A stretch of 29,441 nt of DNA from a virus. The stretch spans positions 1 through 29,441 of the IMG/VR virus record IMGVR_UViG_3300048064_000115. One strand, written 5' to 3'. This document shows positions 11,860 to 28,283 of this stretch, one piece after another. A model generated the notes under the pieces. That model worked only from the letters and a program-made list of their open reading frames with translations. It ran no database searches and was not told the origin of the DNA. How positions within the stretch are numbered: the first letter of the stretch is position 1; every line of letters starts with the position of its first letter. The translations under genes were made by a program, and so were the position numbers.

Positions 11860-12624
11860 ATGGAAAGCGTTACATTTAGCGAACCCACAGAACAGGAGAA
11901 TATGTCTCTTGAAGAACAGGCTGCTATGCAAGATGAGCAAGCCAAAGAACAACAGCCCGAAACGGCTGAAGCAACTCCACAAGACCGCCCTGAGTGGTTA
12001 CCGGAGAAGTTTGATAACCCGGAGGCTTTAGCAGACGCTTACAGCAACCTCGAAAAGCAGTTCCACGAGAACAAAGCCGAGCCATCCGAGACCGAAGAAG
12101 ACAACGCCACGAGCGAACCAGAGGTAACCAACACTGCTGTCACCAGCGCCTCCGAAGAATACTTCGAGACCGGTGAGCTATCCGAGGAGACCTATAAGTC
12201 CCTTGAGGCTAACGGCATCCCTAAGGAGATGGTTGATATGTATGTTAACGGCTACGAAGCCGTGGCTAACCAACAACAACAAACCTTGATGAAGGAGGCC
12301 GGAGGCGCTGAGAACTACGAGGCTATGTCCGAGTGGGCAGCAACAGCTTTAACAGACCAAGAACAAGAGGTGTATAACAACACTGTCGAGTCAGGGGATG
12401 TTAACGCAGCAACTATGGCTATCCGTGGTCTCTATGCTCGCTTTCAGTCGGACGGTGGAACACCTGTTTCTCTTGTCCAAGGCGACACCTCGGGAACAGC
12501 CGGGGCATTGCCCTTTAGCTCCTCTAAGGAGATGACGATTGCTATGCAAGACCCGCGCTATAGTTACGATAACAAATACCGGGAGCAAGTCTCACAACGA
12601 CTATCAGTCACAACCGCATTCTAA
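11860..12624 (+). CDS. Scaffolding (capsid assembly) protein, T7 gp9-like
   Basis: A 254-residue acidic protein rich in Glu, Gln and Ala with no Cys. It lies between portal and capsid genes as T7 gp9 does (307 residues). Family landmarks are DRPEWLPEKFDNPEALADAYSNLEKQ (two pieces, about 42-67) and a C-terminal region ending DPRYSYDNKYREQVSQRL, which is the capsid-interacting end in this family. It acts inside the prohead and leaves before DNA packaging. A later ATG at 11902 would give a shorter form; the first ATG, 2 bases after the portal stop, is preferred. Confidence 0.9.
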   Translation: MESVTFSEPTEQENMSLEEQAAMQDEQAKEQQPETAEATPQDRPEWLPEKFDNPEALADAYSNLEKQFHENKAEPSETEEDNATSEPEVTNTAVTSASEEYFETGELSEETYKSLEANGIPKEMVDMYVNGYEAVANQQQQTLMKEAGGAENYEAMSEWAATALTDQEQEVYNNTVESGDVNAATMAIRGLYARFQSDGGTPVSLVQGDTSGTAGALPFSSSKEMTIAMQDPRYSYDNKYREQVSQRLSVTTAF

Positions 12625-12626
12625 TT

Positions 12627-12815
12627 ATGTCAGCTATTATTACTTACATCCTCGACAACAAAACTGAACTCCTCAGTGCCATCTCTATGGTCATTGCCGC
12701 TTGTTCCGCTATCGCCGCTCTTACACCTACACCTGTCGATGACGGGTTGGTCAAGAAGCTTTACAAGGTTGTCGATTTCCTTGCACTTAACATTGGTCGT
12801 GCCAAACAAAAATAA
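12627..12815 (+). CDS. Small membrane protein, conserved-type phage protein
   Basis: A 62-residue protein with one hydrophobic segment (about residues 16-33, LSAISMVIAACSAIAALTP) followed by a PTPVDDGLVKKLYKVVDFLALNIGRAK tail. Proteins with the TPTP..D and D.LALN.G.AK pattern are common next to the scaffold or capsid genes of tailed phages. They are usually called hypothetical and sometimes holin-like. One transmembrane helix and a basic C-terminus fit a membrane role, but holin activity cannot be asserted. The start is 2 bases after the scaffold stop, without a Shine-Dalgarno sequence. Confidence 0.75.
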   Translation: MSAIITYILDNKTELLSAISMVIAACSAIAALTPTPVDDGLVKKLYKVVDFLALNIGRAKQK

Positions 12816-12840: not shown

Positions 12841-13176
12841 ATGTCTGTGTCTCTGCTAGTCAAGTTACTTATATCGTTTCCTCGGTTAGCAGAGGCATTT
12901 CGTGGTCTTATGGAAGCCTATGAAGAGAAACTATATGTTGAGCGTCACAGCAACATGCGTGATGTTATTGATGAGTGGATGCACTCCGACTCTTCGTCCG
13001 ACAAAGCTCCCTTACTTTTTAGAGAAGGCCAGAGAGCAGACGTGGACAACGGACCAGAAGCAGACGGTGGGGGAGATGTTACATTACATCAACGACCTAG
13101 AGAACAACCAACATGCCCGCTAAACGAAAAGGATTGTCCCTTCGCAAAGAACACAAGTCAGACAAAGGAGGCTTAA
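12841..13176 (+). CDS. Hypothetical protein, outer member of a nested gene pair (i-spanin-like position)
   Basis: A 111-residue reading frame. The first 50 residues look genuine: an amphipathic hydrophobic start (SLLVKLLISFPRLAEAFRGL) and a charged helix (EERHSN-type, ending MRDVIDEWM). The last 60 residues are disordered-looking, charged and glycine/proline-rich, and they are co-encoded with the lipoprotein at 12920-13123 in the +1 frame, which has the more natural codon use there. A short gene carrying a nested lipoprotein gene is the layout of Rz/Rz1 spanins, but a clear N-terminal membrane helix is lacking, so i-spanin is only a possibility. Confidence 0.55.
   Translation: MSVSLLVKLLISFPRLAEAFRGLMEAYEEKLYVERHSNMRDVIDEWMHSDSSSDKAPLLFREGQRADVDNGPEADGGGDVTLHQRPREQPTCPLNEKDCPFAKNTSQTKEA
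12920..13123 (+). CDS. Small lipoprotein nested in another frame (o-spanin/Rz1-like candidate)
   Basis: A 67-residue protein with a textbook lipoprotein signal: a basic n-region MKRN, a hydrophobic stretch and a lipobox LMSGC with the lipidated Cys at 21. The mature part is about 47 residues (TPTLRPTKLPYFLEKA, then a QTVGEMLHYINDLENN helix). It is encoded in the +1 frame fully inside the 12841-13176 gene, and its end overlaps the next gene by 11 bases. Nested small lipoproteins in lytic phages are typically o-spanins that fuse the outer and inner membranes at lysis, which would mean a Gram-negative host. A GTG at 12902 and an ATG at 12935 are alternative starts. Confidence 0.65.
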   Translation: MKRNYMLSVTATCVMLLMSGCTPTLRPTKLPYFLEKAREQTWTTDQKQTVGEMLHYINDLENNQHAR

Positions 13177-13364
13177 CAGAAAAAGGGCGCAAGTATTACA
13201 ACCGAAAGACAGGTAGTAACTTAAAGAAACCGCAACCAGAGGGAGGCCCGAGGAAGCGGTCTTTTTGTGCGCGTAGTCTAGGTATTTTAAAAAAACACAA
13301 CATAAGCTGTTCAAAGACTCCCGACAAGAGAGCATGTAAAGCCCGTAGAAGGTGGAAATGCTGA
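13113..13364 (+). CDS. Small basic Cys-containing conserved phage protein
   Basis: An 83-residue, very basic protein of a type frequent in marine phages. The signature is DKGGLTEKGRKYYNRKTGSNLK (two pieces, about 17-38), PQPEGGPRKRSFCARSLG (about 40-57) and a C-terminal RACKARRRWKC. Four cysteines (52, 66, 75, 83) could bind a metal. I recall such proteins carrying a DUF label (possibly DUF6321), but I am not sure of the number. DNA or RNA binding is plausible from charge. The gene starts inside the end of the lipoprotein gene. Confidence 0.78.
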   Translation: MPAKRKGLSLRKEHKSDKGGLTEKGRKYYNRKTGSNLKKPQPEGGPRKRSFCARSLGILKKHNISCSKTPDKRACKARRRWKC

Positions 13365-13880: not shown

Positions 13881-14900
13881 ATGGCTAACGGAGATACATC
13901 CGCGTCCCGATTGGGACAAGTTAATGCGAGCGGAGCAGTTGATGCTTTGTTCCTTAAGGTGTTCTCAGGAGAAATCCTGACCACCTTCGAAGAGTTCAAC
14001 GTGATGAAAGACCTTCACACGGTTCGGACTATATCCAACGGTAAGTCTGCTCAGTTCCCTGTAACTGGCATTGCTACCGCTAAATACCACACCCCAGGTC
14101 AGAACATTGCTGATGCCGGTAACAGCTACCTCAGTGCTATTAAACACGCTGAGAAACTTATCAGCATTGATGATGTCCTACTTGCCTCTACGTTCATTGC
14201 AAACATTGATGAGCTTAAGAACCACTACGATGTCCGAAGCATTTATGCTCAGGAACTCGGTAAGGCTCTTGCCAAGCGTTTCGATCTTGCAACCATGAAG
14301 ACCCTTACGGCTGCTGCTCGTTCGGCTGCGACTATTACTGGCGGTAAAGCTGGTATCGCAATCGATGGAGGTGAGCCGGGTGCTTTCACTGGAACTGTGA
14401 TTCAAGCCAAGCTCTTTGAGGCTGCTCAGAAGCTTGACGAGAACGACATCCCTAACGATGGAAAGCGTTTCGCTATCCTTAAGCCAGCCGATTACTACAC
14501 ATTGCTTGCCTCTGGTGAAGAGGTTATCAACCGTGACTTCGGTGGTCGTGGTGATGTTGCTACTGGTCGCATCCCAATGGTTGCTGGTATTAACATCTAC
14601 AAGTCAAATCACCTTGTTGACGTAGCTATCGGCGCTAGTTCACAAAACGGACAAGACGCAAGTGCTTCTGTGAAGAACGACGTGTTTGGCTCTGGTGGAA
14701 TCGGATACAACGCCGACATGGACAAGACCTTCATCATTGGTGGACACCCATCGGCGATTGGAACTGTCAAGCTCCTTGACCTTGCTACCGAAAGCGACTA
14801 CAAGGTCGAACTCCAAGGAAGCCTGTTCGTAGCTAAGTATGCTATGGGCCACGGTGTCCTTCGCCCCGAAGCTGCCTTTGAAATCAAAGACGCTGACTAA
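13881..14900 (+). CDS. Major capsid protein, T7 gp10-like
   Basis: A 339-residue major head protein (T7 gp10A has 344), expected to have the HK97 fold and to build the icosahedral capsid. Family landmarks are DALFLKVFSGEILTTFEE (about 21-38), VRTISNGKSAQFPVTG (about 48-63), DDVLLASTFIANIDELKNHYDVR (two pieces, about 97-119) and a C-terminal GHGVLRPEAAFEI. Codon use is strongly biased to codons ending in C or G, or in T for Gly, Val and Ala, as expected for a highly expressed gene. A strong terminator follows directly. No frameshift site producing a longer second form is visible. Confidence 0.96.
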   Translation: MANGDTSASRLGQVNASGAVDALFLKVFSGEILTTFEEFNVMKDLHTVRTISNGKSAQFPVTGIATAKYHTPGQNIADAGNSYLSAIKHAEKLISIDDVLLASTFIANIDELKNHYDVRSIYAQELGKALAKRFDLATMKTLTAAARSAATITGGKAGIAIDGGEPGAFTGTVIQAKLFEAAQKLDENDIPNDGKRFAILKPADYYTLLASGEEVINRDFGGRGDVATGRIPMVAGINIYKSNHLVDVAIGASSQNGQDASASVKNDVFGSGGIGYNADMDKTFIIGGHPSAIGTVKLLDLATESDYKVELQGSLFVAKYAMGHGVLRPEAAFEIKDAD

Positions 14901-19314: not shown

Positions 19315-22300
19315 ATGACAACAGAAGATCTTAAAAAAGCACTCTCTCAGGACACACGGGAGAAAGTTGATGTTAATCTTGGTCAAGTCTCACTGCGATC
19401 AACAATCAGCCGTGGCGGTCAATACAACGTAGTAACACAAGAAACCCCCAAGGAGAACTCGTTTACTCAATTATCGAAAGCGTTAAATCAGTTCCCTCAA
19501 CTTGCTGGTCAATTTAAAAACATTCAACAACAAGCGGGGATCGAGAAAGTCCAAGGGATGTCCCCTATGGAGATTAAAGAGGAGCTAAAGAAACGCGCAG
19601 AGGGCGGCGACGAATCAGCAAAAAGTTTTATCTATGACTTGTTTCAGAAAGAGGCCGTTGATGAAGAACTGTATCGTCAGGTGTTAAAGACGGAAGTCAT
19701 TCCAAAGTTACAGACCTTAGAGGCTGAGTTATCAAACGCTTCTCCATCAGAGATGAACAAAATCTTAAACTCTGAAGACCCAATCGCAGAGCTTGAGAAG
19801 CGTTACAACGATGTGATACCGGGTGAAGTAGATGCAATGGTCGCTAATTCATCTCACCAAAAAGCGTTACACAATGAGATGTTACGTAGGATTCCGGGAC
19901 TCGCTGGTAAAACCCACGCTACCTTGATCGATAACAGACGCAAATTTATTAACTCAGCATCACAAGAGAACATCCTTATGGACGACTCCAGTGAGTGGAC
20001 TAACACACCTTTAGATGATTCTTTTGGCGCGGTAGACCTCAACACTGAGGACATTCCACCTCTTCCAGGGGATGACGTGACTTATAACGAAGGTGCTGGC
20101 GGGTCAGTGCTACCTTCGAGCGACCCGTTTAATACGGAACCTAAAGATCCTGTGGTGAACCAAGAGAAACCTAAGTTACCTAGGGTTGCTCCTGCTGGTC
20201 CTCTGGTGTTACCAGCCACGCTTGATACGTTCCTAAAAGAACCCGGCAGTGAACTAAACTCTCTTGAACAATTCATGCGAGGAGAAGCAGACTACGTGAG
20301 TGTCTCAGCGAACCCAGCGCAACAAGGTGACGAAAGTATTTTAACAGAGTTTTCCTTTGTCGATAAGACCGGAACTACAAACAACTTAGAGAACGTCCCG
20401 ATTAAGGTAGAGGCAACGACTAACGCAGGGAAGACCTCGCCGAAAGGTTTTTTTGGAATAGTTACCGAGGGCATATCCGAAGCGGTTAAAGGTGCTAAGT
20501 ATATCCAAGAAGGAACAGCACCCGAAACTGTCGTAGACAAAAAGCCGGTAAAGTTAACCGCAAGCCAAGAAGTTGAATTAGATGTTAATACATTAAAACA
20601 AGAGAGAGAAGCAAAAGCTTACACACACGCCTTTTCTAACGATAACAAATACCGAAGAGGAGTCGCGGATATACAAGCGGGTAAGAATCTAGATGACCCT
20701 CAAAAGTGGCGCGAAAAAGTTGAAAACTCATCCCTTCAATTTCTACAAGCAAACATTCAAGAAAATCTAAATGTCACTGACACCTATCTTGAGCAAGTTA
20801 AAAACGGCGAGCTAACTCTCGACGGTAAGAAATACTCTAACCTATACATATCACGTCTACAACGGATGGTTGATGCCGAAGAGAAGCGTCAGGAGACAAC
20901 CGATGACTCGTTTGGATCAGAACTGGCCTTGGCTGAACAAATGAAGATTTCGCAAATATTGATTGATGCCAAGAAAATGACGGCTGATCAAGTCCAAGAA
21001 GAGTTAGCTTCTTCTGTTATTAGGGCTGAAACCCTGTTTAATAATAAACAAATCGGAAAATCTGAGCGTGACGATCTAATTGCTGATGCAAATAACAAAC
21101 GAGAATTGATAGGACAATTTGGAATAACTGACGACGTTGACTTCTACGCCTTGATACCCAACCGAGAAACCATCCTTCAGAATCTAGGTAAAACAGACTT
21201 AAGTAGAAAATATCAAAGCTCGGATTCTTTAGTTGAAGCTTGGGAATCTCTGGGAAAAGACGTATCAGGCTTGAAAGTTACACAAGAAGACGACTGGCAA
21301 GGAAAAGCCAAAGACACTTGGAATACAATCCTGTATGATGCACCGCAAAAGACATGGTTAAAAGCCAGTGAAAAAGCTGCTCGTGACATTATGAAGGAAT
21401 ACGAGCAGCGTGGAATTAAAGACCCACGTCTATTTAATGTTACTACCGAAGACGGTCGTGAGTTAACAATTCGTGAGCTATACCGGGAAAGATTAGAAAC
21501 CTATTTTAAAGAAGAAGCTGATAAAACTTCTGATAATGCGCTTGAGGAAATAAGAAAACGCGCTGAAAAATTTAGGGGTGAGGCTTCGGTTGATCGACTA
21601 GCTAACAAGGCTGGTGTAAAACCCACCGATTCGTTTGAAAGAGCGCAGACAAAAATCGCAATGGCGTTAGAAGAAAGTAAAGGTAAAACCGACTTTCTGG
21701 ATAAGGATGGTAAAATGGTTCCCACACAAAGTAACGAAACCTCTGAGAACGCTTTGGATCGCTTTAACATCACCGTTTCGGACGATGACGCTCTTAAATT
21801 GATGAAAAATAAAAACTCAAATTACGACACGCGACAGCAGTTAATTGAGCAAGTCTATCGTAAAACCACCCCTTCGTATTACTTAGATCAAGCGTTTGCG
21901 GGTGCGGTTTATGAAAGAGATAAAAAGTTTAATAAAGCAGATGAACACAGAGCAAAAGTTATAGAACGATCTAAGTATATTGGATTGCCTATGCAGCTAC
22001 ACAGGGACGGTGCGGTTATTCGTTACCAAGGAACCACAGCAGGGAAATCCCCGGAACGCGGTAACTACAGCCCGAGAAAAGGAGTGCCTAGTTATACTCT
22101 TGAATTAAACCCAGACGGCGATGGACCTGATGGAAATAAATTACCTCCTCTTTATTCACGCAGAGATACACCTAAGACTCACATCTATAGTTACTACGCA
22201 GCAAGAGCCGGAGCTTATAACGTATTTGATGACTTAGATGAGTTGTTTAAAAAGTATTTCCCAGATGGAACGGAAGAACAAAAGATACAATTTAGAACTG

Positions 22301-22365
22301 ACCAAGTAGAACTAGCTCGTAAGATTGGCTTCGGACTGCCAGCTAAAGAGAAAACTCCTAAATAA
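19315..22365 (+). CDS. Internal core protein, T7 gp15-like
   Basis: A 1016-residue protein at the gp15 position, much longer than T7 gp15 (747). In T7 this protein is ejected and forms the periplasmic tunnel that spools DNA into the cell. The sequence is mostly charged helix. Residues 1-210 and about 430-1016 look like the helical family body (ending with YYAARAGAYNVFDDLDELFK). Residues about 212-425 differ: a Pro/Gly/Ser-rich, disordered-looking insert containing PRVAPAGPLVLPATLD and FVDKTGTTNN. No enzymatic motif is visible. The leader is TAACAATTTTAA without a Shine-Dalgarno sequence. Confidence 0.85.
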   Translation: MTTEDLKKALSQDTREKVDVNLGQVSLRSTISRGGQYNVVTQETPKENSFTQLSKALNQFPQLAGQFKNIQQQAGIEKVQGMSPMEIKEELKKRAEGGDESAKSFIYDLFQKEAVDEELYRQVLKTEVIPKLQTLEAELSNASPSEMNKILNSEDPIAELEKRYNDVIPGEVDAMVANSSHQKALHNEMLRRIPGLAGKTHATLIDNRRKFINSASQENILMDDSSEWTNTPLDDSFGAVDLNTEDIPPLPGDDVTYNEGAGGSVLPSSDPFNTEPKDPVVNQEKPKLPRVAPAGPLVLPATLDTFLKEPGSELNSLEQFMRGEADYVSVSANPAQQGDESILTEFSFVDKTGTTNNLENVPIKVEATTNAGKTSPKGFFGIVTEGISEAVKGAKYIQEGTAPETVVDKKPVKLTASQEVELDVNTLKQEREAKAYTHAFSNDNKYRRGVADIQAGKNLDDPQKWREKVENSSLQFLQANIQENLNVTDTYLEQVKNGELTLDGKKYSNLYISRLQRMVDAEEKRQETTDDSFGSELALAEQMKISQILIDAKKMTADQVQEELASSVIRAETLFNNKQIGKSERDDLIADANNKRELIGQFGITDDVDFYALIPNRETILQNLGKTDLSRKYQSSDSLVEAWESLGKDVSGLKVTQEDDWQGKAKDTWNTILYDAPQKTWLKASEKAARDIMKEYEQRGIKDPRLFNVTTEDGRELTIRELYRERLETYFKEEADKTSDNALEEIRKRAEKFRGEASVDRLANKAGVKPTDSFERAQTKIAMALEESKGKTDFLDKDGKMVPTQSNETSENALDRFNITVSDDDALKLMKNKNSNYDTRQQLIEQVYRKTTPSYYLDQAFAGAVYERDKKFNKADEHRAKVIERSKYIGLPMQLHRDGAVIRYQGTTAGKSPERGNYSPRKGVPSYTLELNPDGDGPDGNKLPPLYSRRDTPKTHIYSYYAARAGAYNVFDDLDELFKKYFPDGTEEQKIQFRTDQVELARKIGFGLPAKEKTPK

Positions 22366-28121: not shown

Positions 28122-28283
28122 ATGAACTCCTCAGTCAATACACCCTTAGTAGGTATCACCGGATTGATTGCAAATATAACACTCGAACAAGTTAACACCA
28201 CTGTGGCTATTGCGGTAGGACTCTCCACGTTGATCTATATGTTAATAAAGATACGACACCTCTTAAAACAGAAACAGAAATAA
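28122..28283 (+). CDS. Holin-like small membrane protein at the T7 gp17.5 position
   Basis: A 53-residue protein with one clear transmembrane helix (about residues 27-44, TTVAIAVGLSTLIYMLIKI) and a basic C-terminal tail RHLLKQKQK. It lies between the fibre and small terminase genes, exactly where T7 encodes its class II holin gp17.5 (67 residues, one membrane helix). Position, size and topology support holin function; sequence similarity is not evident. It starts 8 bases after the fibre stop, with leader TAACACAAGAT. Confidence 0.68.
   Translation: MNSSVNTPLVGITGLIANITLEQVNTTVAIAVGLSTLIYMLIKIRHLLKQKQK

Follow-up and report, generated by a model that had tools for sequence, protein, structure and literature searches.

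A lipoprotein gene nested within another gene between scaffold and capsid of a T7-like phage, a candidate spanin-like pair

The stretch of DNA analyzed here (the window, 29,441 nucleotides) is a 29.4-kb record from a T7-like phage, the capsid protein of which is 80% identical to that of AP013544.1, the complete genome of a marine phage that is uncultured and assigned to Ayaqvirus S45C18 (Autographiviridae). Between its scaffold and capsid genes lie genes for a 62-aa protein with one transmembrane segment and for a 111-aa protein (the outer gene), a DUF6321 gene, and two further small open reading frames (ORFs), with a lipoprotein gene nested inside the outer gene (Table 1). Judged by its position, the 62-aa protein has a putative holin-like role. 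A 53-aa protein encoded elsewhere in the window is a candidate for the main holin, based on its position relative to TerS, where its place matches that of T7 holin 17.5, and on the hydropathy of its AP013544 counterpart; a search for a family match to this protein gave none. The DUF6321 gene is a neighbour that lies outside the spanin-like pair discussed below. It is missing from four relatives (L031, L040, L042 and L044) in which the outer gene and the lipoprotein gene are intact, and because it varies in this way among close relatives, the scaffold-capsid interval appears to gain and lose genes frequently. In the internal virion protein region, a 1016-aa protein (19315-22365) has no match in PHROGs at E 0.001 or in Pfam at E 0.01, and a search of bacterial genomes for a host by way of prophages returned no match.

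Table 1. Features of the window discussed in the text
Feature	Position	Strand
Scaffold	11860-12624	
62-aa membrane protein, one transmembrane segment (PHROG 9685, E 2.6e-13); cassette gene 1	12627..12815	+
Outer gene, 111 aa, ATG start; proposed for the i-spanin slot	12841..13176	+
Nested lipoprotein gene, 67 aa; proposed o-spanin	12920..13123	+
Codon for Cys21, the lipidation site of the nested lipoprotein; invariant in alignment A1	12980..12982	+
DUF6321 gene (Pfam PF19846, E 4.1e-19); begins inside the 3' end of the outer gene	13113..13364	+
Capsid	13881-14900	
53-aa protein with a single transmembrane segment, between tail fibre and small terminase; candidate main holin	28122..28283	+

The nested ORF is contained entirely within the outer gene, in the +1 frame. 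Its start is placed at ATG 12920 because this is the only start common to every relative, a later ATG at 12935 and an upstream GTG at 12902 not being shared by all. The resulting product begins MKRNYMLSVTATCVMLLMSGC, continues TPTLRPTKLPYFLEK and ends LHYINDLENNQHAR. Its lipobox, LLMSGC, had been described as perfect from the window alone; it does pass the PROSITE pattern PS51257, but the methionine at position -3 breaks the pattern [LVI][ASTVI][GAS]C. The lipobox is conserved among relatives, with 60 of the 61 related records matching PS51257 and the lipobox cysteine invariant; the one exception, LLMPGC in L074, fails at position -2. An N-terminal lipoprotein signal with a lipobox cysteine is one feature by which an o-spanin is recognized; linkage to a partner gene, with the lipoprotein gene overlapping or embedded in it, is another, and embedding in the +1 frame is found in all relatives of the clade. 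An apparent absence of the lipoprotein from L040, L043, L044 and L180-L183 was dismissed, as a strict lipobox filter had missed frames that direct reading shows.

In the AP013544 copy of the lipoprotein, strong hydrophobicity is confined to the signal peptide. The mature protein has many charged residues, is predicted with low confidence by AlphaFold2 to form helices at residues 29-38 and 44-66, and contains no cysteine besides the lipidated one. A C-terminal transmembrane segment was sought in the mature protein and none was found. The alternative raised in the preliminary description, a unimolecular spanin, combines a lipobox and a C-terminal transmembrane domain in one protein, and is therefore not supported; moreover, a conserved partner overlaps the lipoprotein gene in every relative. 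Family matches are weak but consistent: PHROG 456, annotated "Rz-like spanin", is the family matched by most lipoprotein members (13/14, E 0.0015-0.0064, best 0.0015), and the annotated o-spanin of Rhizobium phage Pasto gives an identical PHROG 456 score (E 0.0064). Against the Pfam LysC (Rz1-like) family the nested lipoprotein scores E 0.094, under the family cut-off. No second lipoprotein candidate was detected on the coding strand of the complete AP013544 genome, and with only three weak hits on the opposite strand an alternative lipoprotein was rejected.

Searches for relatives gave 45, 62, 75 and 77 viral contigs in partly overlapping sets, with 62 distinct outer genes, of which one is cut by a contig end and 61 are full length. 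All 61 contain the nested gene, at outer-protein identities down to 57%, and in all of them both frames and a lipobox-type signal are kept. By itself, the window sequence barely outdoes a chance inner frame: when the outer protein is recoded synonymously, the +1 stretch still stays open and carries a lipobox in 5% of cases. The case rests on family conservation. The first 26 codons of the outer gene show an ordinary third-position pattern. Ahead of the overlap, the mean pairwise differences at codon positions 1/2/3 of the outer gene are 0.291/0.058/0.456; inside the overlap they are 0.280/0.172/0.204. Across outer codons 75-88, in which the outer third position is the inner second position, the values are 0.303/0.166/0.026, which puts third-position divergence at 0.026 against 0.456 outside the overlap; therefore, the freest position has shifted to the inner-frame wobble base. 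In addition, inner-frame identity exceeded that of a null preserving the outer protein (p<0.05) in 10 of 13 comparisons. The inner frame is thus under selection, as codon-position substitution shows, and the outer and nested genes are both real and co-conserved, which bears out the codon-level conservation in two frames that the preliminary description had proposed as a check.

The outer protein consists of a conserved core (residues 3-51) and an extension (residues 52-111) that runs through and beyond the lipoprotein frame to a C-terminal CPx5CP motif, invariant in the aligned relatives. The motif could be viewed as a mere consequence of the overlap with DUF6321, but it is retained in the four relatives without DUF6321, indicating that it is kept for the outer protein itself. 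The outer gene had been noted to lack an obvious signal-anchor, and this was upheld: the KD19 maximum is 1.33, the longest uncharged run is 7 residues, and Lys8 and Arg/Lys15 near the N-terminus are conserved. Judged from sequence, the N-terminal type II (N-in/C-out) transmembrane domain of an i-spanin is absent. The two invariant cysteines would supply the periplasmic cysteine seen in spanin pairs, their periplasmic placement being putative. AlphaFold2 gives helices at residues 3-12, 14-36 and 40-48 followed by disorder, at low confidence (pLDDT 60), and PHROGs, Pfam and NCBIfam gave no family match worth naming. Other sources of an anchor were also considered. The upstream gene ends at 12815 and the outer frame is open only from 12826, with a stop between the genes that closes the outer frame and excludes both a frameshift fusion with the upstream membrane protein and a longer outer start. 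The upstream 62-aa protein is itself an unlikely i-spanin, as the positive tail after its membrane segment suggests a C-in orientation.

Using homologues of the 62-aa membrane protein as bait for a survey of the cassette, we found a lipoprotein ORF no more than 160 nt downstream of 14 of 18 distinct homologue genes, against a background of 0/267. The genes of sister autographiviruses run in the order portal, scaffold, membrane protein, a 52-61 aa protein, an overlapping +1 lipoprotein, and an Amidase_3 endolysin (E 2.8e-24) directly after the lipoprotein within the scaffold-capsid interval, usually followed by DUF6321 and then capsid. Profile comparison relates the window lipoprotein family to the sister lipoprotein (E 1.6e-23), hhalign relates the outer core (residues 3-51) to the sister 52-61 aa partner (E 5.4e-14), and tblastn from single L249 sequences recovers the AP013544 pair (E 8e-7 and 1e-3). 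Five IMG/VR autographiviruses (L227, L245, L246, L249 and L261) have homologues of both proteins in the same gene order and register as the window, but differ in that the 61-aa partner ends inside the lipoprotein frame and the endolysin is adjacent. The window lineage has no endolysin gene next to the pair; its member AP013544 carries an amidase from that Pfam family beside TerL. Because the sister homologues of both proteins sit with Amidase_3 between scaffold and capsid, the window pair is assigned by homology to a lysis cassette, membership of which is seen in the sister phages. Throughout, the partner overlaps the lipoprotein in the +1 frame, in several sequence-unrelated versions. In some phages with the same first gene the lipoprotein is a far stronger match to a spanin family, namely PHROG 8971 Rz-like spanin in L243, L269 and CGphi29 (E 1e-10 to 1e-11) and PHROG 1275 Rz-like spanin in LUZ100 (E 1.6e-12).

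Similar arrangements exist in named phages. Like the window, T7 has its lipoprotein gene (gp18.7) wholly inside the partner gene (gp18.5) in the +1 frame in the late region of an autographivirus, and the embedded spans are close, at 0.24-0.84 of the outer gene in the window and 0.27-0.85 for 18.7 in 18.5. However, the T7 pair adjoins TerL, and the two pairs, compared by family matches and not by direct sequence, have no family match in common. The KD19 of gp18.5 is also modest at 1.35, but gp18.5 has 19 uncharged N-terminal residues, against a run of at most 7 in the window protein. In Rhizobium phage Pasto, endolysin, holin, i-spanin and o-spanin are annotated between scaffold and capsid of a T7-like genome, and the o-spanin overlaps the i-spanin in the +1 register of the window pair; the Pasto genes are overlapped and not embedded, and the sequences look unrelated. 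The Pasto i-spanin CPT_Pasto_043 (L108:3304-3597, MT708545.1) has an annotated start that omits the transmembrane segment. A start at L108:3214 restores it and makes the protein a canonical i-spanin, in contrast to the outer protein of the window. Pseudomonas phage LUZ100 carries the same first gene (gp37, 41% identity) in the same interval, with a short partner that has a weakly hydrophobic N-terminus and a +1 overlapping lipoprotein, as in the window, although partner and lipoprotein sequences differ and the architecture is overlapped. That partner is an unannotated 78-aa ORF (OP329100.1 20275-20511; L104:3078-3314), and the lipoprotein that overlaps it is gp38 (OP329100.1 20426-20617; L104:3229-3420). 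Salicola phage CGphi29 has the same first gene, a partner and an overlapping lipoprotein named Rz-like spanin in RefSeq (SLPG_00043-00045); its lipoprotein is of the PHROG 8971 type, unlike that of the window, and as the neighbouring genes are unannotated the likeness covers these three genes.

We consider it likely, with moderate confidence, that the two genes specify a two-component spanin-like lysis pair, with the nested gene coding for the o-spanin and the outer gene for its partner in the i-spanin slot. The lipoprotein itself is very probably an o-spanin, given its lipobox, its embedding in the +1 frame, its place in a lysis cassette, its consistent though weak match to PHROG 456 and its status as the only coding-strand lipoprotein candidate of AP013544. 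For the outer protein, the +1 register, the near-T7 geometry and the invariant C-terminal CPx5CP point to the i-spanin slot; it is termed a candidate i-spanin only, because it has no canonical transmembrane anchor. Against a pair stand this missing anchor, the weak direct matches to spanin profiles, the low AlphaFold confidence and the non-adjacent endolysin. A periplasmic cysteine is present in at least one component of 507 of 528 surveyed two-component pairs (PMC6139136), and two conserved cysteines in the i-slot protein with none extra in the mature lipoprotein would be in line with these statistics. As proposed, the lipoprotein would be exported and receive its lipid at Cys21, then sit in the outer membrane and extend two short helices into the periplasm. 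The outer-gene product would attach to the inner membrane through its N-terminal hydrophobic or amphipathic helix, with its C-terminal tail, which carries the CPx5CP cysteines, turned towards the lipoprotein. After opening of the inner membrane by the holin and removal of the peptidoglycan by the amidase, the pair would join or disrupt both membranes and virions would be released. We infer the outer-membrane location, the anchoring and orientation of the outer product, the contact within the pair and the lytic role. The original suggestion of a divergent spanin therefore stands as regards the o-spanin-type lipoprotein, its conserved lipobox and the T7-like +1 geometry, but the position between scaffold and capsid is no sign of divergence, as sister phages keep the lysis cassette and its amidase there, and Pasto does likewise.

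Alternatively, the lipoprotein could be an o-spanin while the outer protein is a cytoplasmic, membrane-surface, antiholin-like regulator of the 62-aa protein, with the i-spanin located elsewhere, missing or replaced by a host factor. The amphipathic N-terminus with its fixed charges, the want of a clear transmembrane segment and the small sister homologue core of just 52-61 aa would suit such a regulator, and 31 phage genomes are reported in which the lipoprotein has no type II membrane protein linked to it (PMC6139136). Nevertheless, we regard this as unlikely, though a serious competitor: sequence-unrelated partners invariably overlap the lipoprotein gene in the +1 frame, the CPx5CP motif outlasts the loss of DUF6321, and nowhere else in AP013544 is there a convincing type II membrane protein, the nearest approach being a 57-aa protein in the early region with a short tail. 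Phages also encode lipoproteins that have no part in lysis, and lambda bor adjoins Rz/Rz1. An outer-membrane role of this kind, for example in superinfection exclusion or envelope modification, would agree with the weak direct spanin profile scores, yet it appears improbable given that the sister homologues abut the endolysin gene, that the same first gene co-occurs with confident o-spanins, and that the +1 overlap is with a co-conserved partner. That the inner frame is merely a chance opening within a single gene, as the recoding figure of 5% might allow, has a negligible likelihood in view of its retention in all full-length relatives, its codon constraint and a sister-phage homologue that reaches far beyond the partner gene.

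Returning to the spanin-like pair, its architecture differs between lineages. In a portal-protein tree all ten embedded representatives fall in one clade (100/100) and every pair-bearing relative outside it is overlapped (L265 being scored so by analogy with L270), such that a single change suffices. The partner frame of sister phages terminates at codon 38 of the lipoprotein (codon 27 in L240), with further stops in the remaining outer frame, whereas in the window clade the outer frame continues past the lipoprotein stop. From the outer branches, and dependent on the root, we infer that the change was from overlapped to embedded. In a 2018 survey, no spanin family combined the embedded with any other architecture, and stop-loss was raised there as a possible route (PMC6139136). 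The embedded window clade beside overlapped relatives is a mix absent from the families of that survey and, within the open-access literature searched, looks new. Because the ten embedded representatives form one clade next to overlapped relatives, the route between the two architectures is open to direct study. More tentatively, with somewhat less than an even chance, a widespread lysis cassette may exist that consists of the PHROG 9685 protein, a short amphipathic-helix protein and an overlapping lipoprotein, with a spanin partner that is not of type II, and within a single family lengthening of the partner gene across the lipoprotein gene would have turned an overlapped pair into an embedded one.

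If so, such a partner would account for some "orphan" o-spanin lipoproteins and for some genomes that seem to lack spanins. The usual target of spanin surveys is a lipoprotein gene adjoining one for a type II membrane protein, and a 2025 dataset drops i-spanin candidates without transmembrane regions (PMC12596118); if pairs like the present one are spanins, transmembrane filters miss them. LUZ100 is a case in point, as no apparent spanin equivalents were reported for it (PMC10134795) and yet the same interval holds the unannotated partner and an overlapped lipoprotein matching an Rz-like PHROG. That the layout reveals an unannotated spanin-like pair in this phage also looks new within the open-access literature searched. 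The partners of the confident o-spanins in L243 (2683-2886) and L269 (2685-2915) match PHROG 9219, which has no assigned function (E 6e-8 and 9e-7), and the CGphi29 partner (L185:3182-3397) does so weakly (E 0.014). All three have amphipathic N-termini and no clear transmembrane segment, and are possible overlooked spanin partners.
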